Origin: Maylandia zebra
Lineage: Eukaryota; Chordata; Actinopteri; Cichliformes; Cichlidae
Direction: 5' to 3'
DNA: 64,000 nucleotides
Assembly: GCF_041146795.1 (NCBI RefSeq)
Contig: NC_135167.1
Span: 28,427,454 to 28,491,453 of the forward strand
The position numbers and the translations under genes were made by a program. Shown piece after piece: positions 5,452 through 29,892 of this stretch; within the stretch, counting starts at the first letter, position 1, and every line of letters begins with the position of its first letter. The notes beneath the pieces are model-generated. The model ran no database searches. It saw only the letters and a program-made list of their open reading frames with translations, and was not told the origin of the DNA.

Positions 5452-6537
5452 TCATCCCCTCGCAGCCTCTGAGTCTTCCTCGAAGGCCCTGTTGTCATAG
5501 CGATGCTGCTGTCTCTCTGGGTCGAGGCTCCCTGGGTCAGTCAGTGGGACTTCATACAGGGCGTCTCCTGTCACTGTGATCACGGTGACATCTGGCGGTG
5601 ACTCAGAAGAGAAGCTCTCTTTTCTGTCGTCCTCAACGCCCAGGGCCTTCAAGATGTCGCACTTACACATAGGGCAGGTTCGCCTCTCCAGCAGCCAGGG
5701 CTCGATGCAGGTTTTGTGGAAGATGTGATCACACGTCAGCACGGTCACCACATCGCCTACCTTGTAGGATTCGATACAAACGGCACACATCGAGGAGTCC
5801 GAACTGGTCTCCTCGTCCCCTCTCTTGAGCGTGCGTACCTGCAAACGCTTAATTGCCTTCTTCGCCTCGGATTTCAGTCGCTTCTCATTGCGCTTGCTCA
5901 TGCTCATATTGTAGAGACGGTTTGCGGAGATGAACACAAAGTAGGCGATGGAGGCTGCGGTTACAATGAAAAAGGCAATGGACAGAAAGTAAAGCCAGTA
6001 TGTGTCCATCCAGGGTCCGTGAGCCACGCCTTCACTAATTATCATTTGAACATCAATCCCGTTTTTCACCAACCTGACAATCTCCATGCCCTGAGTGTTA
6101 CCAATCATGATCGCCACAATTTCGTCTGCATCTGAGTGTGCCATGTGTGTAGTGCTGTTTCCACTGCCGTCCACATTATACACAACAACAGCAGCTGCTC
6201 CGAGGCGTTTGGCAGCATTGATCTTCTCACCGAAGGTGCAGTTGCCCCTCTTCACCAGGGCTATCCACGGTGGTAAGGTTTCGTTGCGGTCGTACACAGG
6301 ATCTGGGCCACAGCCTTTGGGGTCTCCCACGGGAAGCGTAACGATGCCAAAAGCTCTTTTCCTCAGAGAGTTACGGCCATACAACCCACACTCACAATAT
6401 TTCTCCTCAGTCTCATTGTAGCTGTTCACAAAGCTTATTTCCACGTTGGCAGTCCAAAATACAAAGGTAGCTGAACAGTGAACAAGCCCTGACAAAAACA
6501 GCAAAAGCAGCAGAGGTGGTTGTGTCTTCTTACCCAT
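5452..6537 (-). CDS. Intronless RNF128/GRAIL-type PA-TM-RING E3 ubiquitin ligase
   Basis: A single uninterrupted frame encodes 361 residues. It has a signal peptide (hydrophobic run PLLLLLFLSGL near residues 7-18), a protease-associated luminal domain with several N-glycosylation sequons and the typical LVKRGNCTFGEKI and VAIMIGN motifs, one transmembrane helix at about residues 180-205, and a cytosolic C3H2C3 RING-H2 (CAVC...CDHIFHKTC...CPMC). A DNRAFEED tail follows, like the DNPTFEED tail of RNF128. Proteins of this family are membrane-anchored ubiquitin ligases of the endosome/ER; RNF128 promotes T-cell anergy in mammals. I chose the ATG at 6537 because the signal peptide follows at once; an in-frame ATG 21 bases upstream would add seven residues. 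Mammalian RNF128 has several exons, so this copy looks like a retrogene, as do mammalian RNF133 and RNF148. Which paralogue it is cannot be decided here. Confidence 0.88.
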   Translation of the reverse strand: MGKKTQPPLLLLLFLSGLVHCSATFVFWTANVEISFVNSYNETEEKYCECGLYGRNSLRKRAFGIVTLPVGDPKGCGPDPVYDRNETLPPWIALVKRGNCTFGEKINAAKRLGAAAVVVYNVDGSGNSTTHMAHSDADEIVAIMIGNTQGMEIVRLVKNGIDVQMIISEGVAHGPWMDTYWLYFLSIAFFIVTAASIAYFVFISANRLYNMSMSKRNEKRLKSEAKKAIKRLQVRTLKRGDEETSSDSSMCAVCIESYKVGDVVTVLTCDHIFHKTCIEPWLLERRTCPMCKCDILKALGVEDDRKESFSSESPPDVTVITVTGDALYEVPLTDPGSLDPERQQHRYDNRAFEEDSEAARG

Positions 6538-8160
6538 GGTAACACTGTTCTTGAACAAGAGGAAGTCCTCTTACTCAGGCTTATTTAGCCTCTTCAAAAC
6601 TTCTTTTTCAAAAAAAGAAAAAAACTCCCAGTTCCTGGTCTGTTCAAGTCTCAGCAGTCTCAATCCGGCGATAGTTTCACCAAGCCTGCTGTCTTCGGTA
6701 ATATGACACGAGCCTTTGGTAACATAAAACAAGCTACGCGTCAGCCACTCACCTCTCGTTATCTTCCTGAACCTTGAACACTGAACACTCCCCGCTGAGG
6801 GCAGGGTGTTGCTATTCAACAAGTTGAAGTACACAAAACACACAGACCTATGTTGTTTCCAGAGCCAAGGAACAGCATTCGAGAAGGAAAGACATGATAA
6901 GCAAATGATAAGAAGACTTTCATAAGGCAAGACTGTGACAGCTGTAAAAACTGCCGCATTCTCCTTGCATAATGATGACAAAAGCAACTCAGCCAGTTTT
7001 TCTAGTTTGACTGGTTTCCTTCCTCTTTTTTCTGCGGCTGCGATCATTGTTTTGTTAAGGTGACAGGCAAGTTTTGCACCGCTGCCTTGTGGCTATTGTC
7101 TCTAATCTACAAATATAGTCTACTGCATATTCTACTGCAGTAGACTAATGTTGCTGAATATTTTTACAGGCTTACGAAAAAAAACTGAGTGAAGAGGATA
7201 AGACTTTTGCACACAAGAGTAATGTTTTTCCATTGTGCTGATACTGTAACTAGAGACTCATCCACCACTGCAGGCATACCAGTGACCACTGAAATAGAAC
7301 GAGGCACTGTCAAGTTTCCGCTGTATCTTCTTACACACAAGTGAAAGCGCACAAACACTAAGAGACAGAAAGGCTTCAAATGACAAATTCGATGGTGAGG
7401 TTGCTGTCCAGCTTGATAGTTTACCTGAGATTGAGACTGGATTGAGATCTGCTCTATTTCATTGAGCCATTTTTACCTTAGTTCACACACACACAAAGAA
7501 TGTGTACACAATGCGCTATTAAATAATCTATTTGACTGGGGCTAGCTCTGTAAATAAAAGACTGTGAGATATTTCCTTTTAGCACAGCTAGAAGTCACAG
7601 CTTCTGATAACAGGAACAATGGTTCTGCTCTGACCCTTAAATTCCAGAAATATTACCCTGTCAAGTTATGAACACGCACTCCAAAAAAGACCTCATGTCT
7701 TGTTCAAGTTAATAAAAACAGACATTCCTCTTTACAGGTGAAGTTTGGTGTTAGATTCTAAAGGTATCCTGAGACTTTCTGATCTAATACTGGCATCTGC
7801 TGGCTGGTTAGTGGTGTGGTCAAAGGAAAAGACAAACCTCCACCAAGCTAGGTGAGTCAGACAGACGTGCAAACTGTCAGCACTGGACACATGTGTGCAT
7901 TTGCTTATATTTTAATCCGAAAAAGAATAGTGATTTCAACAGTGTTCAGTGGTGTTAGTTTGATGATGAACTTAAACTCACTTACTTAAAAAAAATTTAA
8001 AGAATAAAAAAAATTTAATTGTAAAGAAATTAATGGAAGCAGTACGGACGAAATGAATTTGTCCTAATTCACTCCTAAAAGGTTAATTTAATAATAAAAG
8101 ATTAAACAGTACTAAGTTGTTATTCCAATAAATGAACAGAGTCATTAAAAGAGATAGATA
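6538..8160. other. Upstream region of the RING gene, no supported gene
   Basis: A 158-codon open frame on the minus strand (7047 to 6571) ends just before the ligase start codon. It has no recognisable domain and more likely belongs to the ligase 5' UTR or promoter. The rest is AT-rich, with no repeat or coding exon that I recognise. Confidence 0.4.
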
Positions 8161-18734: not shown

Positions 18735-20601
18735 CTAGGCGTTTCGATCAATACGGACGTCGACCTCTCGGCCATTTATCTTGGTTCCATTCATCATCCT
18801 GCAGGCCTTCTCGGCACTCTCTGGAGAGTCGAATCTCACCGTTCCGCATCCCTTCGACTTTCCATTCTCCATCTTGATTTCTGCAAACATTACCTGACCT
18901 GTAGCAGAAAAGAATGAGCAACGGCTGAATTTTGAAAGCAGAATCTTTAACAAAGTGCTGATTAAATCTTAGATATTGGTCTTTGTTTTCAGCGATCAAT
19001 TGTGGTGAAATGCCAAAAGTGCTCCAGTGGTTCATGAATTAAACAGAATAATTAATTCAGTGGTCTATAATAAGCGAAACACTTACCACAGTGACTGAAC
19101 TTGTCTTTCAGTTTTTGCCATGTCAAATCATAGGACAGCTATAAAACAAAAATATACTTCAGTCATTACATTAGTCAGCATTAACACATTTACAGCTGGA
19201 CCTTTGTACATAGGGCTGTGCGATATGACCAAAATCTCATATCCTGATATTAAGACATCTATCGTCCGATAACGATATAAATCACAAAAATTTAACATTT
19301 TCTATAAATTCTGTGAATCTCGGGCAGCTCGACTTGCGTGAAGTGTTTCCAGCTGGGCGTCGCGTACCTGGAGTCGAGTGTTTTAACTGATGCATGAAAC
19401 TATACATTTTTAGACATAAGTTGTAAGGGCCGCTGTTTTCTTTGTGAGTATTTCTTACACGGCGTGCTGCGTGTGAAAGCCTGTTCTAACGTTTGAGTCT
19501 AAGGTTTATTTTTTTTAGCACCTGACGGCTCTTTTTTGCTTCCTAATCCGTAAAACTGCATCTTTCACGTGATTCAGTTTATTTTGAAAAGTCACAACAG
19601 GATCTTGAGCTTTATTGTGAAATGTTTATGTGGAACATAAACAAGCGGACACGCGGTGGTTTTACCGTCGTTGTTGCTAACGACAACGCATAAAAACAAA
19701 CGCTTGTCTGTCTGTAGTGTGGTTATAAATATAAGAGAAAGTGAGAACTTTAAGAAATTAATATAGCCACTACAGTGACCATCAAAATAATGAAAAAATA
19801 TTGCCGTAAACGTTTATTTTGCAACACCACGAAACAAACGATAGCGTAAAATGAAACGATAAGACGTTTTTATATCGTCATCCGATATATATCGTTATAT
19901 CGAACAGCCCTATTTGTACAGGAATCAAACATGTCAAAGATGACATCGAACTGATCATAAATCCTCCAAGCAAAAATTAATGATTCATCAAAGCACACCA
20001 CATATTATTAATAACTTTGTGTGCTTATGCAGCTATCCAATCAAAGGCCCAGCAACAATATATTTAATGACATCTAATGAACGTTTATCACGTTAAAGTT
20101 TAACTGATCATGTTAGCACAGCGAACTGATTAAAGAAGCAGTAAATTTAGATACACAAATGTCTTGAGAACACATCTAAACAAAAGAGGAATGATGGGGG
20201 GGTTACAAGAAATTCTAACACAAGTGATGTTTGCTAAACCTGGACCTTTGAATTCCCCTTTAACATTTTAAACTTTGAGTGGCAGCATACTATAGTGCTT
20301 GCACTATGACTACTATCACTATCACGACTGACTGTATAGGAAGATAAGGATGTCCACAGATGTAACAGCTCTGAAAATCAGAATAAATGAACATGGTTTT
20401 ATTTCTGCTTACATTTCGCACAAATATCTGGCAACCTCCTTTGGACCCTGAGCCTCTGTCCGACATGCCACCACCCATGTGGCCCGGCCCCCCGCCTCCA
20501 TAGCCACCAAAGCCACGGTTCATGTCCATTCCTGACATTCCCAAACGGTCAAAGCTGGAGCCCATTCGGTCCATCGACATATTTCCCATTCCCCCACCTG
20601 A

Positions 20602-20647
<46 letters not shown>

Positions 20648-23600
20648 AAGTGCACACAAACAATTTAACCTAATGCACAGTTAGGTTTTAACAGGGTCAT
20701 GTTTGCAGTTTCCTGCACTGCTGCAGAACTACAAAGCCTCATGACAGATTTCTGTGAATTGGGACTTTTAAAACACTTTGCACCGCTTTATGAATAGATT
20801 TTTATTAACTTATTCTAATAAAATGTAACCGAAGTGTATCTAAACGGTGCAGAAGAGGATTGATTTTCCACTTCCAAACTTGCTATCACAGAAGCCAATG
20901 TCGCCATGACACTGTTTATACAGTGGGTGCAGACTCTGTACCAGTTTAAATAATTAGTCACCACACTGCACGAAGAATCAATGGGAAAACTTCATTCTTT
21001 TGTGAAAAGAAAACATTTTAACTACTGACAAACCACTATACCCCTTTTTAGTCTCTAACAAACAAGTAATTGTCGATCTCTGGGAAAATAAATACCATAG
21101 CATTTGCTATAGTACAGGCAGCAGTGTTCTGAATACTTTCAGTCTAATAATTTAAACAAGCCTGGGATGAAATGGAAAAATACCATAAGGCTGGTCAACC
21201 AAAACTTGACAACTCCATCATAGATTCCATCTTATACTGTAACTGTAAAGATTTTCAGGTTTGTGTGGGTTTTTTGGCATACATGAAACAGAGAAAGTGC
21301 ATATTTTCTCTGTGGGTTGCTGTGGCCAGCCAGGCCCTCTGCTGTTTTTTTCTTGGTCTTCAAAATGCATCTCTTTTCTCCAAGTACTATATTTTCCGCA
21401 CTATAAAGCGCACTTAAAATCCTTTAATTTTCTCAAAAATCGGCAGTGCGCCTTATACTCTGGTGCGCCTTATCTATGAATTCTGACTGTGTTTACTGAC
21501 CTCGAACCAATTTTATGTGGTACACGGCGCTCAAAAATCAGTCAAAAAATGTTTTAGTAGGACTTTGCTAAGCTACGAAGCCGCACTGCTTGATCGATTG
21601 TCTGAGCGTTATGGCTACCGTAATCAGGAGCCTCACGGCTCATAGTAATCTGGGTCCAAAACCCCGTCTGCGTCAGGTCCCAAACGAACACTGTGTAAAT
21701 ACTTTCATCTTTAATAAAATGATCAGTGTTGCTGCTTTACCAGGTGTAACAATTAAGTTTAACATCCAGGCATCCATGAAAACAGAAATTATTAAATTTA
21801 ACGGAGTTAGAAGTTAGCAGATAGTTAGCTGGCTAGTTTCGCTAGTTACATAAACTAGCGAAACTAGTAGCATGTTCTGACTGAGAGATTTCTGGGCAAA
21901 AATAAAACGTACAGCTCTGCTATCACTTCCAACATGAATGAAGACAGAAAACTACACAGCAGTGACGTTTGTAGGATTACTGAAGTTGGACTAGCTGGTA
22001 TATGATGCTGTGCTAGTGATCGCTAGCGACACAGATGTTAGCATAACAAAGCATAAAACAGTGGGCCCTAAACTCCATCCGCTTCAGGTCCCAAAGTCAA
22101 ACGAACACTGCAGCATCACTGAGAGTTAAAAACTTTCTAAATTCTTTCATCTTTAATAAAATGAGCAGCGTTGCTGCTTTACCAGGTTTAACAATTAAGT
22201 TTAACGTCCAGGCATCCATGAAAACAGAATTTATTAAATTAAACAGAGTTAGAAGTTAGCTCGCTGGTTTCGCTAGTTACCTGAACATGATATAGCATGT
22301 TCTGACTGAGAGATTTCTGGAAAAAAATAAAACGTACAGCTCTGCTATCACTTCCAACATGAATGTAGAGAGAAAACTACACAATAGTGACGTTTGTAGG
22401 ATTACTGAAGTTGGGCTAGATGGTATATAATGCTGTGTTAGTGATCGCTAGCGACACTGCTATGTTAGCTTACCAAAGCATAACACAGTGAACCTGGAGA
22501 ATGAACGCTAACCTTTTTCCACTTGATAAAAGTTCCCGATGGTTTTTTTTGACAAATACAATCGCATGGAAAATTGATGTAAACAGACCAAACTTCAGTA
22601 GGGAAGGGGAACAACTGAGATGCTCCAGCCACAATATGAGGTTAGTCATTAATGTAAGATAAGATAACCTTTATTAGTCCCACACGAGGGAAATTTGTTA
22701 CAGCATAAAGTGGACAGTGCAAAGTTACATAGCAAAAATGAGAAAAACACTAGAAAAATATATACTGTTGTTCCGGTGTTTATAGAGCAGCTACCAGAGA
22801 GAGTAATCTAATTCATACAAAAAAACCTGTTATATCTTATTCTTTATTTATGTTACCAAAAATAAAATGCGTGTGGTGACCGAGTCTGTTGTGACTCTTA
22901 ATAAGTAAGACGTATTAATACACTACTTTCTTAATCTGTGTGACAACCATGACCACACGTTTCCACACCCACTGCTAAGTGTATGACAGTTCAGGAGATT
23001 AGGTTGCTGTAATCAGCCATAAAGATCTAAACTTCTGTTTCTCTATTCAAATGTTATCCTTTAGGAAGCCTGATATGAGAGATGTTACTTATGTTATAGC
23101 AGGAAATACTGTTAATTTTGTTTCATTTTTATCAATTTACACTGTTTAAATTCAAGTAAAAGAGTTACATTTTACCAAAAAGGTCAGACTTGGAAAAGAC
23201 TAAATATATTAACTACTGGAAGGAAATGATGATTTGGGGGCAGCCCAAACTTTAAGTAAGAGTACTGTTGTGGAGTCTCATGTACCTTTAATTACTGAAC
23301 AACTGCTATAAAAATGATAATTTGAAACACTGTGTATTAAGATTTTTTTTTTCCTAACCTGTGCCTAATCCAGTTCCCATGTGCCCCATGCCACCACTGC
23401 CCATGCCTCCTCCAAAGCCTCCACCTAAAGAAGAGTGCAAGTTGATGCAAATTCAATTATACCACGATGCAGTAGAACTCACAGCCTCACTGAAGTGAGA
23501 GTATAACTTACCCATTCCTCCAAAAGAATCCCCAAATCCTCGATTCATTGGCATGTCACCGTGCCCAAAGTCCCGATCCATTCCACCCATTCCTGATCGG

Positions 23601-26428
23601 TACATATCTTAACACCAAAAATACAATGAAAGAGAAACAAAACAATCAACAATAAAACGAGATGACACATTAGTTACCAATAACAAACAAGAAAACCTGA
23701 TTTTTGGCCCACTGAGGGTAAAACAGACTTACCTCCCATTCTGCCAACTGGTGCCATGTCCCTCCCTCCAAACCCACCCATACTGCCCATGCTGTCCATG
23801 CCTCCAAAGCCTCCACTTGCACTACTCATTCCTATCGAAAGCAGAAGAGAAAAAGAAATCTCCTTTGTTAACACCGAGGTAACCATGGTCATTCAACAGG
23901 AAAGAAACTCGTAGGTAGCAAAAAGCTCACCTCCCCCAAGTCTGTTCATTCCACCATAACCTGATACATCCATACCTGGCAAAGACAAAGGAACATCGAA
24001 TTACAAGAAACAGATGTAATTCCATAAAATTTACAACGTAAAAGCGCTTAAATATTATCTGGACAGAGCTCTGATCATTTCATTTCTTTGCACATCGAGG
24101 CTAATAGAAAAACAGACACTGGTATGTTGCATATATGTCAGTCTAACTTGAACACAGTTAATATTGCCTTGAGACCCTAATTTGATGATCAGCTAGTGGA
24201 AATGTAATTCTGTCGGATAAATATTGGCTTGTAAAGACAAACTGTTGCAACTCGGCATATATACGACACACTTTGCACTGAATATAATTTAAACCTAATA
24301 TCTCAAAAGGTGACTGACCTCCAGGTCCCATAGCGCTCATGCCGCCTCCACCACTCAAGCGGTTGGCATTGATGGGTTGACCTCCTGGCCCCAATCCCAT
24401 GCCAATACCACCTAGACCACCTACACAAAGAAGAAAAATTCCTTCTGTATTGTCTCCAACCACAAGAAATGCTCAAGACATACTTCATACATACTAAAGG
24501 CACACTGCCATTTTGGTGAACAAATTATTTATTCACTCACACACCATCTTGTTAAAATGCAGCTGTTCACTTCCTGTTCTGGTAAGACGCGTTTACTTGA
24601 TTAATGATAATAAAACTATTTTTTTTAAATTACGTTTTTTGCTTATGATAAGGGAATAACAGCAAACTCACGTGGTAACTGAGGTGCTTTTTCTACTTGC
24701 CGAAAGTCTTCAACGGGTAGAGATTTCTCATCCTGCAAGACCAAGCATTTTTCTTTGCCCACATATTCACATCGTCTGCATAGCTTAAAGCACATTGTAA
24801 CTTAACAAACAAAAACAACACACACGTACCATTTTTACGTGCATCTGCCTGTCAAAGAGCATCTGCCCATTAAACATGGCTGGAATCAACATCAAGGAGA
24901 ATGCTGTGGTAAATATTGTACAGAATAAGTTCTTTTTCTCTTTTTGTTTCTTTTTTAATTAATACTTAATTATAAAGGATACAAATGGCCTGCACAGCTT
25001 CCAGTGGCTGCTCAAAAGTCACTGTTCCCATCCCACGGCTCTTGCCATCTTTATCTTCCTTTACATCTGCTCGCTTCACCACACCGGCCATACTAAACAC
25101 CTCTTTTAACTTCTTCCACCCCACCTTAAAATCCAGCTGTTGAACAATAGAAAGACACCAGTGCGTTTAATAAACAGGAAAAAAAAAAAAAGATTACTAC
25201 ACAGATTTGGAAACTGCTATACCTCCATATCAGTGACAGCCATACTGTGCACACTGTGTGGTAAAGATGGCACAGCAGCTTTTGTAGCCGTCTCTTATGG
25301 AGGGTGGTGACGGTGGTACAGTGGGGAGTTCATTTCCCATTTTCAGTACGAAGACAAAGTAAAGTGGATTATACTACTGCTTACGGTAAACAGTAAACAT
25401 TAGTGGATGGATAGCACATGGAAGGAGTTAAAACAATACTACCGTATGTCAGTAGTTATCTAGTTATTTTCGCTTACTTAGGGGTCTACTAACTCTTTTG
25501 GTCGGGGTAGAACAGTGGTGCAGGGTTTAGCACTGTCACCTCACAACAAAAAAGGGGTTTGAATTCACCGGCCAGCTAAAGCCTTTCTGTGTCTGTGTGG
25601 GTTCTCTCCAGGTTGACCGCCCTCCCCCAACAATAATTCTAAATTACATGTTTGTGCGTAAACAGTTAACGGTAACTGTAATGGTGAAAGTGGATTTGCT
25701 TGCTAAACAGTTGTAGCTACAACATATACACATATCATAAAAACTTTTTTTTTAAATTACACAATGTTTAGGCCCAGCTGAAGCTCCATTAAACTCTGGT
25801 GGGCTGCCAGGCTTAAAATAGACTGGCACAAATCCTGTAGAAACATATAATTGTGGACGTATTTCACAGCTGGTCAAATATTTAATTAGTAATACTAATC
25901 TCTGGTGCCAAGCTATTAAATTACTTTAAAGCCTTCACTATGTATACGAGTGTGCTTGGCAGATGTCTACAATTGCACAGTGATAATTAATGTTTAATAA
26001 CATTTCCTTACATTAGCTACAAACACAGTGTTGCCAAGTCGCCCAGCCTCCAGTGCATGGATGACTTCAGGTGGGATGTTAGGGTTGTTAGCAATGGAGG
26101 GCGGGAGGTTCATCACACCAGGCCCCATGTCGTGCCCACGGCCTCCCTGTTGACCCCCTCCCATGCGTTGCAACACACGGCGGGCATGCTCTCCATCAGG
26201 GTCCTTAAATAGAAAACATTATGATAACATTTAAGAAAAAATAAATAAAACTAGAAAATTTCACAGTGTCATTTTAATTTAGTGGTACATCGCTGGATAT
26301 TTTCAGATCTGATGTTAACAAAAACATATGTAATGTAATAATGCTACATCATGGTTACCACCACAATCTTTTTATGACTGCTTCATATGCCCACAATCAA
26401 CAGAAAATAGCAACATGAGATCAGCTTT

Positions 26429-26467
<39 letters not shown>

Positions 26468-28960
26468 CAGCTAAATATAATCGGCAATCTATGCTTCTCA
26501 CCTCCTTGATGTTGAGTGGCCTTCCACTCAGGTCATGTTTATTCATAGTTAATACTGCCTTCTTCACAAACTCCTCATCTTTGAACTCCACCACACTGTT
26601 GAACGAGGCAAACGGAGACGCCACATGAGTCAATGCGAGCACAACATATAAAAACAAAAGTTGTTTCTTTGAGAAAAATAGGGTTTCTTACCCACACCCC
26701 TACGAAGGTGGCATCACAGGAGTTCAGGAGTCACAGAAGGAGGGAACAAAATACAGTTAAAAACAAGATATTACAAACAAAAACATAATATAACATCTCA
26801 ACTAGTTTTTAATATGTTTTTTATGCATGTTGGCCATATTTTCCCTGCTGGCTTGAGCCGGCTGGTTTTTAACTTTACTGCAAACAAGAAAAAATGCTGA
26901 AAAAAAACAAAAACAAACAAACATCACATTTCTTAATAATTAAAGATATTACAAGAAGAAAAATATCTAAACAGTAATATATAAAGGTTGCAGTTAAAAT
27001 AAAAAAAAAAAAAACTAAAAAAAAAAAAACAATCACATTTGTCAGTAATATTTAAACATTCTATTATTTTACCTGAAAATATTTAGGTTTTGAACTGGAC
27101 ATTGATTACCACGATAGATGAAAAAAGCAACAACAAATGTATTTAGTACATTGTTTAGGATTAACAAGTTGTGACTTTAAGAGAAAAAATGTGTGGTTCA
27201 TCTTTAAATCTATTGCATCATTTGTTGCCATTTAACATAAAGACATAACAAAAACAACTACGTGGTCTTTTGCAACTGCTTTGTTCCATTAAACAGAAAG
27301 CTTTGCCATATAACAGAATTGTAAAATAAAATTTTGAGACATGAGGGTCAATCAATAAGACCAATCACACAACCCCGCATTTCCCTTTGGAAAATGGCCA
27401 AACAAACAAACTTTTAAACCAATTGAAATGACAACAACAAAAGCAAAAGTATACTCTTAGATGAGTTCATTGGCTACATTTCCAAAAGTCAACAGGACAT
27501 CTCCCTTTCAAATGAAAAATCAATCATTAGCCATCTTTCAGGCTCTAAACACAACCTATAGTGTCTCCAGTTCATTTAACCCAAAGGATCAGAGCCTAAA
27601 AGAGCACTACATTATTGAGAGCCTGCTGAGGGCATTTAAAACCTCGTGCAGCAATTTGGCCACATCACTTACCCTTGACTTTCCTTCAGCATCCTTAAAG
27701 AGCTCCACGTATGTAACCTCACCAACTACATGAGACATACAAAGGGAAAATACCAAAAGAACAAAGGAATTTAAGTCACCAAGTCTTCAAATCACCGCTG
27801 GCCTTGGCAATACAGCTACAGATGGAGATGTCCCCATTGATCAACAGCCAGCCCAGACCAACATCCCACCAGACAACACCATGCCTTTCTGGGCAGTGAC
27901 TGAGACACCCAAAGGCCAAGGCCAGAAAAATAAAAACAAAAACAGCAAAAAACAAAAACACAGCTATATTAAACCTGGGAATTTCAAAATTCAAATCAAA
28001 AGACTTCAACGTGATCAGTTTAGCAACAAATTCCATTCAAGGCAGTTGAGATGTTTAAGCTGTCCTTTGACCTTTCAAAATATCTTTTTTGGGAACTCTG
28101 TATTTCATAAAGTAAAACATTGGAATATTTTTCATTGATACTAGCAAGATTCACCTTAATGCAGATGCAACAAAAACATTCAACAATCAAAATATTCCTT
28201 GCTGGATTGAGGTTACATTTTGGAGCTGACAATCCATTAAAACAAGTAACAATGTAACTACGTAAATCCTACTTTTTCCTCACATACATATCAGCCCAAG
28301 CTAAATTGGTGCCCATCCAAAAATAAATACATAAATAAAAGAATTAAAACTCCAATAACCTTAAATCACAATATGGCGGTTCCTTAATATCTGCACTAAG
28401 CATATCCACAAAAGCTACACACAAATTAGCTGGCGTTAGAAGCAAACGTTCAAGCTTGTAACAAAACAGAACAAAAGGTCAAAATCTTCTTTTCAGCTGA
28501 AGAGAGAGGCAGAGGGAAAGACGCCATACCCATCACTGGGTAGATTACCTTTATCACGCATTAGATCTTTAATTGCCTGCCACTTCATATCATACGGGAT
28601 ATTGCTGATGAACACTCTGTTCCTATGAGCACCCTTCTTTTCTCCACCATGTTTGTCTTTGTAGGGATGGTAGCGGCCTCCTCTTCTGCCTCCAGAGGAT
28701 TTCTCTTTACCATCATGCTTTTCTTTGGGGGGCTTGCCTTCTTCTTCCCTACAAAATACAGAGAAGTGCAGGTCAACATCTCTAAACATCTTCCACAGAT
28801 CACTGGGGCATCAAATTAAAAATCTACCCTTAATAAATTTGTGAGTAATAGCAGACTCATCTTTTGTGATTTGCTTTAGAAATTTAATTTATACCTTTTT
28901 TAACCTTATACATACAAAAAACTCTACTCATATTAATAAATTCTATAATATGGATCTAAA

Positions 28961-29002
<42 letters not shown>

Positions 29003-29892
29003 TCATGATCTAAAATAGCCATACCCACAAACAGCAATATGCATGCATACGTGCTGGACAAACTTTGGATTTCTTTGCGTGTAAATGACAACTACGTGAG
29101 TAGATGAATGCATAAACAAATTAAAAGAAAAGTATTCATGCAACTTCTGATTTCGCTAAAGACCAACATAATGAGGATTTTAACCAAGTGTGACATTTTA
29201 TAAATCCTTATGAAAATACAGCACACATTTTAAATGAACTGATACTTTAATGCGTATAGAGCACTTTAAATGTATTAAGCCGGTATAATTTTTGTGCAAC
29301 AGCGCGGAGCCATTAGCAGCTAACCGCAGGTTTGTTAGCATAGCATAGCGCAATGGCCATGAACAATTTCATTAAGATTAGAATGGGTGCTAACTAGTAA
29401 AAGCACAGCTTATTTTGCTTGTGGTTAAACCTAATTAATTTAATTAAAGTAAGGCTGGCTTGGTGGTTACTAGCGCTGAATTTCAGAGTTTCGTTAGCTT
29501 TAGCTAAATATGAAAGCACAACACAATGGAGAGTAGCACCTAACCGAGAATGACCCATTGCACCAGCCTTGTAACATTGTGGCCACAGTTTATGGAGATG
29601 CATATATACCTTAAAGTCTTACATTATATTTAAATTTAACACATATACTTCGACGTTATATTTCTTACAAGAGATTGGAGGATTCTTTGCTAACAATAGC
29701 TAATATTCAAGGACTCCATTTTAGCTAAGCTAGCTAACAGCGACGCAGAACGACCGGATAATATTACAACTTTTTAACTCACATTTTCACACCGTTGGGT
29801 GTTTCCTCAGATGTCTCGTCGGGTTCCGACTTGACTGATTCAGAAATTTCCTCCTCCTGTGGTTCCTCTTTAGCCGTTTCAACATCTGCCAT
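18735..29892 (-). CDS. myef2: Myelin expression factor 2, hnRNP M-like RNA-binding protein with three RRMs
   Basis: Seventeen coding exons, in transcript order: 29892-29783, 28748-28549, 27725-27673, 26699-26692, 26595-26502, 26203-26012, 25136-24983, 24879-24830, 24732-24672, 24420-24319, 23975-23931, 23831-23733, 23607-23512, 23424-23359, 20597-20413, 19138-19087, 18898-18735. They join in frame to 576 residues. The protein is a nuclear RNA/DNA-binding relative of hnRNP M, first described as a repressor of myelin basic protein. The layout is an acidic N-terminus; RRM1 about 81-155 (RNP2 VFISNI, RNP1 KSRGCGVVEF); a linker with LPPSIANNPNIPPEV; RRM2 about 213-287 (VFVANL, KSRGMGTVTF); a Gly/Met-rich linker 300-497; and RRM3 about 499-576 (IFVRNL, KSKGCGTVRF). 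The C-terminus DVRIDRNA matches the mammalian protein. Exon 4 is an 8-nt microexon. Exon 15 is preceded by a (TG)19 tract. Introns hold several mobile-element relics. Confidence 0.96.
19211..19912. mobile_element. Non-autonomous hAT-type MITE with 8-bp target-site duplication
   Basis: A 702-base element in the myef2 intron between exons 15 and 16. Its termini are inverted: TAGGGCTGTGCGATAT at the left and, read from the right on the minus strand, TAGGGCTGTTCGATAT (15 of 16 identical). It is flanked by identical 8-base duplications, TTTGTACA, at 19203-19210 and 19913-19920; 8-bp duplications are typical of the hAT superfamily. No transposase frame is present. The intact duplication suggests a fairly recent insertion. 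Confidence 0.85.
20607..20644. repeat. (CA)19 dinucleotide repeat next to the myef2 exon 15 acceptor
   Basis: On the transcribed minus strand this is (TG)19, followed by CGCGCTCAG and then exon 15, so it takes the place of the usual polypyrimidine tract. Confidence 0.95.
21385..22510. mobile_element. Transposon-derived repeat with internal tandem duplication (hAT-like, unclassified)
   Basis: It starts with CACTATAAAGCGCACTTAAAATCC and CAGTGCGCCTTATACTCTGG, a terminal sequence seen in many teleost non-autonomous DNA elements. The body holds two related units about 411-425 bases apart: unit 1 about 21664-22064 and unit 2 about 22074-22490. They share, for example, GCTGCTTTACCAGGT, GTCCAGGCATCCATGAAAAC without its first base differing greatly, and CAGCTCTGCTATCACTTCC. 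Unit 1 contains a 15-bp perfect hairpin at 21833-21867 that unit 2 lacks. The matching right terminus is not evident, so the copy seems truncated. The superfamily is uncertain. Confidence 0.55.
22650..22762 (-). repeat. LINE 3'-tail-like fragment
   Basis: AAGATAAGATAACCTTTATT AGTCCC followed by GAGGGAAATTTG resembles the inverted 3' end of common teleost non-LTR elements, whose sense form ends in GGGACTAATAAAGG plus a short tandem tail. Only the tail is present. Confidence 0.45.
25498..25625 (+). repeat. tRNA-like SINE fragment in a myef2 intron
   Basis: AGAACAGTGGTGCAGGGTTTAGC followed by CTGTCACCTCACAACAA, a B-box-like GGTTTGAATTC and TGTGTGGGTTCTCTCCAGG correspond to a very common teleost repeat with A- and B-box-like motifs. 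It lies in the intron between exons 6 and 7. Confidence 0.5.
26432..26462 (+). repeat. Poly(A) homopolymer run
   Basis: About 31 consecutive A residues in the intron downstream (in transcript order) of myef2 exon 5. Confidence 0.95.
26692..26699 (-). CDS. myef2: 8-nt microexon (exon 4) of myef2
   Basis: The sequence GGGTGTGG is preceded by acceptor CTTCGTAG and followed by donor GTAAGA. Exon 3 ends in phase 0 and exon 5 starts with TGTGGTGGAG, so the conserved RNP1 sequence SRGCGVVEF can only be read if these eight bases are included. The intron to exon 5 is only 96 bases. Joining exon 3 straight to exon 5 shifts the frame and meets a stop after six codons. Confidence 0.85.
28962..29001. repeat. 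(TAA)n microsatellite
   Basis: About 13 copies of TAA in myef2 intron 1. Confidence 0.95.

Follow-up and report, generated by a model that had tools for sequence, protein, structure and literature searches.

In the myef2 gene of Maylandia zebra, the third and fifth coding exons are separated by intronic sequence that holds eight bases with the boundaries of an exon, which raises the questions of whether these bases are a genuine exon and, if so, whether that exon is included in every functional transcript or serves as an on/off switch for the protein. Both questions were addressed by computation on a stretch of 64,000 nucleotides (hereafter the window) that contains the gene. The eight bases probably (at roughly three chances in four) constitute a real coding microexon of the essential type, exon 4, which would be constantly included in essentially every productive myef2 transcript. 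Four things were computed directly: the sequence, its reading frame, the finding that one route stands alone among all those enumerated, and the stops that follow upon skipping of exon 4 or retention of intron 3 or intron 4.

The myef2 gene and its predicted fourth coding exon

The coding region of myef2 is complete in the window and, by exon joining and translation, consists of 17 coding exons on the minus strand (18735..29892) encoding 576 aa (Table 1). All 16 introns have GT-AG boundaries and the joined frame is open over 1731 nt, which corresponds to 576 aa plus the stop codon. The N-terminal 219 residues match Pfam RRM_1 (E 3.6e-17), and hnRNP M chains are the 2nd, 3rd and 11th among the 31 PDB sequences matching RRM1. 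RRM2 and RRM3 were recognised by eye in the same protein, and the gene is thus assigned to MYEF2 of the hnRNP M family by three RRMs, one of them found by Pfam, and by its neighbouring genes. From 179 stop-to-stop frames of at least 70 aa in the window, 30 were put to Pfam and 5 matched. A Na_Ca_ex domain was located at 17.0 kb of the window, the N-terminal domain of an amino acid permease at 41.9 kb, an amino acid permease domain at 44.7 kb and a calcium-binding EGF domain at 61.8 kb. These four matches fit the order slc24a5 - myef2 - slc12a1 - fbn1. The Pfam match, the hnRNP M structures and the neighbourhood bear out the identity that the first-pass annotation had given to the gene. The fifth match, at 5.5 kb, belongs to a 372-aa open frame (5455-6570, minus strand) that combines a PA domain with a RING finger and resembles the E3 ubiquitin ligases RNF128 and ZNRF3. 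A search of the whole window against Rfam returned no match at the gathering threshold.

Table 1. Positions of myef2 and of the parts surrounding exon 4, numbered along the window
Feature	Positions	Strand	Basis
myef2 coding span	18735..29892	-	open frame; Pfam RRM_1 in N-terminal 219 aa
Exon 3, 53 nt, ends ...AAGTCAAGG/gtaagt	27673..27725	-	exon joining
Intron 3, 973 nt; 95 nt without AG before acceptor	26700..27672	-	
Candidate distal branch-point word TTTTTAAC and pyrimidine-rich block	26732..26763	-	branch-point role putative
Exon 4, predicted 8-nt microexon GGGTGTGG	26692..26699	-	open 576-aa frame, phases 0/2, shuffle control
Intron 4, 96 nt; if retained, TAA directly after Gly-Cys-Gly	26596..26691	-	
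Exon 5, 94 nt, starts TGTGGTGGAGTTC	26502..26595	-	exon joining

Exon 4 is preceded by ...CACCTTCGTAG and followed by GTAAGAAACC. The exon begins in phase 0 and ends in phase 2. With one further base, the first of exon 5, its eight bases spell Gly-Cys-Gly, and the join reads K-S-R-[G-C-G]-V-V-E-F. With a length of 8 nt, an internal and coding position, AG before it and GT after it, it lies well within the usual bounds of a microexon (at most 30 nt, internal, coding). The acceptor and donor previously reported for GGGTGTGG (26699-26692, minus strand) were found in place, the junctions given for the end of exon 3 (27673) and the start of exon 5 (26595) are both correct, and translation of the join agrees with the claim that exon 4 supplies the Gly-Cys-Gly of KSRGCGVVEF.

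The RNP1 octamer of RRM1 in myef2 is R-G-C-G-V-V-E-F. Two positions of RNP1 are usually aromatic and stack on RNA. In the alignment, these positions are occupied by C and V in myef2 and by F and F in PABP (GKSKGFGFVHF), and RRM2 (RGMGTVTF) and RRM3 (KGCGTVRF) of myef2 likewise lack the two aromatics. Exon 4 had been described as coding for the RNA-contacting RNP1 strand, which appears partly right: the centre of RNP1 is encoded by it, but the contact with RNA is putative, the two usual aromatics being replaced by C and V. The RNP1 stretch lies inside one exon in RRM2 and RRM3, and is split in RRM1 only.

Routes between exons 3 and 5 and the splice signals of exon 4

Possible routes from exon 3 to exon 5 were enumerated by bare dinucleotides, with GT or GC as donors and AG as acceptors. 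Human MYEF2 and HNRNPM proteins presumably carry GCG or GCA at the position of exon 4, and neither tripeptide occurs in any of the 61 single-intron routes that keep the frame (0/61). When the exon 3 donor and the exon 5 acceptor are fixed, there are 69 internal exons that bring the sequence back into frame, one of which (1/69) gives GCG. The statement that the coding sequence can only be joined by including the eight bases is therefore too strong with regard to the frame, which 61 single-intron and 69 two-intron routes preserve, but it holds for the protein motif, as the microexon alone gives GCG. The 61 one-intron routes and the 68 other two-intron routes were dropped because none of them gives GCG.

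As a control, the 1077-nt stretch was subjected 20,000 times to a dinucleotide shuffle. An 8-nt AG-GT exon coding for G-x-[GA] was present in 75 of the 20,000 shuffles, and one coding for G-hydrophobic-[GA] in 45. A G-hydrophobic-[GA] exon whose donor reached a score of 3.1 occurred in none of the 20,000, compared with one in the real sequence, figures that serve as a guide since the shuffle criteria were set post hoc and the donor table is approximate rather than MaxEnt. The eight bases are thus strongly predicted to be an exon of myef2. A pattern search for relatives matched 12 stretches in prokaryote genomes and 3 in viral contigs, none of which was confirmed in either set.

Scored with the same approximate table, the exon 4 donor (TGG/GTAAGA) comes third among the 81 GT sites of the 1077-nt stretch and falls within the top 2.4% of the 7412 GT sites in the window, and it ranks 13th of 16 among the donors of myef2. 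It is narrowly outscored by one decoy GT inside intron 3 (3.21). The exon 4 acceptor has a proximal pyrimidine content of 0.65, a value exceeded by 11/16 acceptors in the gene. Judged by these scores, the splice sites of exon 4 seem adequate, not strong. The AG-free zone before its acceptor (95 nt) is the longest found in any of the 16 introns; since intron 12 shows one of 87 nt without a microexon, the zone in intron 3 is no clear outlier. The last A of the candidate branch-point word TTTTTAAC lies at 26757 (-58), and the block after it has pyrimidines at 19 of its 24 positions; candidates closer to the acceptor are also present.

Ordinary recognition across the exon requires more length than 8 nt. 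We propose that the splicing machinery would treat the 96-nt intron 4 as one unit and excise it first. This would fuse exon 4 to exon 5 in a composite of 102 nt (8 + 94), a normal exon size, and the acceptor upstream of the composite would become usable. Crowding at the tiny exon may also be relieved by a distal branch point near -58. Inclusion would further be constant and not a switch, and skipping would shift the frame and yield a transcript expected to be lost to nonsense-mediated decay.

Further splicing features were observed elsewhere in the gene. Intron 7 (24880-24982, minus strand; 103 nt) resembles a minor U12-type intron, its donor GTATCCTTT matching 9/9 positions and CTCCTTGAT near its acceptor matching 8/9 positions of the U12 consensus, both being the best of the 16 introns. 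Passages of published work report a U12-dependent intron in mouse Myef2, as intron 8 (PMC5063418), and a U12-type intron in HNRNPM (PMC10853781), which suggests that the U12 type of myef2 intron 7 is probably conserved. A 38-nt TG repeat (20607-20644, minus strand) precedes the exon 15 acceptor and replaces the ordinary pyrimidine tract. Intron 14 (2761 nt) contains two similar blocks (21870-22500, minus strand), with 175 of 189 aligned bases identical between 22300-22500 and 21870-22070 by local alignment, pointing to a duplication or to two copies of a repeat.

Probable constant inclusion and the alternatives

Skipping of exon 4 was claimed to shift the frame and to reach a stop after six codons, and translation of the skipped join returns exactly this (KSR-CGGVQR-stop, six codons followed by TGA). 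The stop lies 73 nt upstream of the exon 5/6 junction, with 12 junctions downstream, and under the usual 50-nt rule nonsense-mediated decay of the skipped transcript is expected. If intron 3 is retained, the frame ends 21 residues past KSR, and each of the three errors tested (skipping, retention of intron 3, retention of intron 4) terminates the protein within RRM1. In PMC6547761, an exon counts as essential if its loss places an early stop at a distance of over 50 nt upstream of a junction, and exon 4, with its 73 nt, belongs here. It likewise belongs among frame-shifting microexons, having a length of 8 nt that is not 3n and an early stop on skipping. On paper, exon 4 would be essential.

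Precedents for constant inclusion come from human microexons. In the passages of Koh et al. (PMC9929638) that bear on this point, endogenous mRNA revealed no skipping for any of the non-3n coding microexons tested (5/5), the microexon of MPC1 was not skipped even with cycloheximide, and short flanking introns are described in the discussion as typical of constitutively spliced microexons. Constant inclusion of exon 4 is favoured by its 96-nt downstream intron and perhaps by a distal branch point as in MPC1. Counting against it, 4/5 of the constant microexons were significantly skipped in shortened reporters in the same source (PMC9929638). According to the passages of a mouse study (PMC7821500), splice signals are strongest in microexons that are always included and weak in neuronal ones, and 0.74 of the neuronal, muscle and neuromuscular microexon clusters are in frame. 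By this comparison, exon 4 looks constant in its frame, with a length of 3n+2, but not in the strength of its sites. The rank of its donor (13/16) and its weaker acceptor pyrimidines, set against the strongest signals reported for constant microexons, argue against constant inclusion, and the donor rank moves some weight, slightly, from constant inclusion to a switch.

Such a regulated switch, in which controlled skipping coupled to decay sets the level of MYEF2, possibly through binding of MYEF2 or hnRNP M to its own transcript, is unlikely. Its frame logic matches that of an essential exon, and a donor ranked 13/16 and a proximal pyrimidine tract below the median would allow some skipping. 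In human cells, an essential exon of the paralogue HNRNPM has been put forward as a self-regulation candidate of low confidence, with a change of -0.13 at q 0.7, in the passages of PMC6547761. Furthermore, passages of two papers report changes in Myef2 splicing, one counting Myef2 among genes that undergo alternative splicing in mouse ES cells (PMC8892232) and the other describing myef2 as differentially spliced in the gill of heat-stressed largemouth bass (PMC11505094), with the exon unnamed in both passages. Against a switch, GU-rich words, taken as a sign of self-binding, are not enriched around exon 4, as 20% of same-sized windows of the gene equal or exceed it in such words, which is weak evidence against skipping regulated by the gene's own product, and the human precedents, at least in the passages of PMC9929638, comprise 5/5 non-3n microexons that are unskipped endogenously, in the case of MPC1 also with cycloheximide. 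The first-pass annotation had proposed an on/off switch, possibly coupled to decay and possibly with self-regulation by MYEF2. The decay part of this proposal is backed by where the stop falls, 73 nt short of a junction, and by the 12 junctions downstream, but the switch part runs against the GU-rich words and the unskipped precedents, and self-regulation gains nothing from GU-rich words that a fifth of the windows match or surpass. Given the donor rank of 13/16, exon 4 may be moderately regulated.

It is less probable still, and on our reckoning improbable, that exon 4 is an ancient essential microexon common to MYEF2 and HNRNPM, in vertebrates or more widely, whose inclusion would be tuned and would set the level of this family of splicing factors via decay; the tuning that belongs to this reading would be by temperature and neural differentiation.

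A neuron-specific microexon of the SRRM3/SRRM4 programme is very improbable. Features of this programme are a UGC near the acceptor and a long AG-free zone. Exon 4 has a UGC at -14 to -12 and a long AG-free zone before it, and its splice sites are not strong within the gene. However, a UGC also occurs in the last 25 nt of 8/15 other introns (9/16 overall) and was set aside as an uninformative neuronal mark; the neuronal regulation suggested earlier for exon 4 is putative. A frame-preserving length, usual for SRRM3/SRRM4 microexons, was not found either, 8 nt being 3n+2, compared with 0.74 of the mouse clusters in frame in the passages of PMC7821500; skipping would moreover abolish the protein outside neurons, and the main text of a paper on zebrafish Srrm3/4 (PMC12626424) contains no mention of myef2.

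It is hardly credible that the eight bases are not an exon and that the transcript takes another route, or that this copy of the gene, or its assembly, contains an error at this place. By bare dinucleotides 68 other two-intron and 61 one-intron routes are in frame, but none of these alternatives gives the GCG that stands at the matching place in RRM3 of the myef2 protein and also in an RRM of hnRNP M (PDB 2dgv). The shuffle control also speaks strongly against such a reading, and each of the 16 remaining exons is intact.

Significance and likeness to known systems

None of the kinds of exon concerned here is new, since microexons, constitutive non-3n microexons among them, and essential exons have each been described before, and exon 4 is a neat but ordinary member of the known class of tiny exons, most likely always included. 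It may well be annotated already in vertebrate genome databases. In the titles, abstracts and main-text passages of the open-access literature covered by the search, exon 4 of myef2 is not named and no paper treating MYEF2 and microexons together was found. Passages of papers on Myef2 splicing leave exon 4 unnamed, the intron named in that of PMC5063418 being retained intron 8. The main texts of four papers contain no mention of the terms sought, namely rump or hnRNP (PMC8042270), Hnrnpm (PMC7821500), HNRNPM or MYEF2 (PMC9929638) and HNRNP or MYEF2 (PMC13247117).

If exon 4 is real, pipelines that miss an exon of 8 nt would break the annotation of myef2 in Maylandia zebra, and reads spanning it would map poorly. 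It would also provide a natural test case of how the splicing machinery deals with an exon too short for across-exon recognition. Its importance as a biological switch would arise only if regulated skipping were demonstrated.

Three known systems invite comparison. Like SRRM3/SRRM4 microexons, exon 4 is shorter than 30 nt, has a UGC near its acceptor and has splice sites that are not strong for the gene. In contrast to the SRRM3/SRRM4 clusters, which are mostly in frame in the passages of PMC7821500, its length is 3n+2, and a UGC at this place is nothing unusual among the introns of myef2. With the decay-coupled essential exons described in passages of PMC6547761, exon 4 shares an early stop that lies over 50 nt upstream of a junction, and the HNRNPM candidate among them is, like myef2, an RNA-binding protein gene of the same family. 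Self-regulation has been proposed there for the HNRNPM exon (PMC6547761, in a passage that does not give its position), whereas exon 4 resembles it in frame logic.

The 4-bp exon of human MPC1, as described in passages of PMC9929638, resembles exon 4 in being coding and non-3n and in shifting the frame when skipped. Branch points of MPC1 lie at -63 and -68 with a pyrimidine-rich region from -67 to -43 (PMC9929638, same passages), where myef2 offers candidates only, and the upstream likeness between the two exons is suggestive only. Inclusion of the MPC1 exon was measured (PMC9929638), whereas that of exon 4 of myef2 is predicted here from sequence. The MPC1 exon is flanked by introns of >12 and 3 kb in that source (PMC9929638), compared with 973 and 96 nt for exon 4; MPC1 thus has long introns on both sides, whereas the 96-nt downstream intron of myef2 makes an order of 'intron first, then exon' directly testable.
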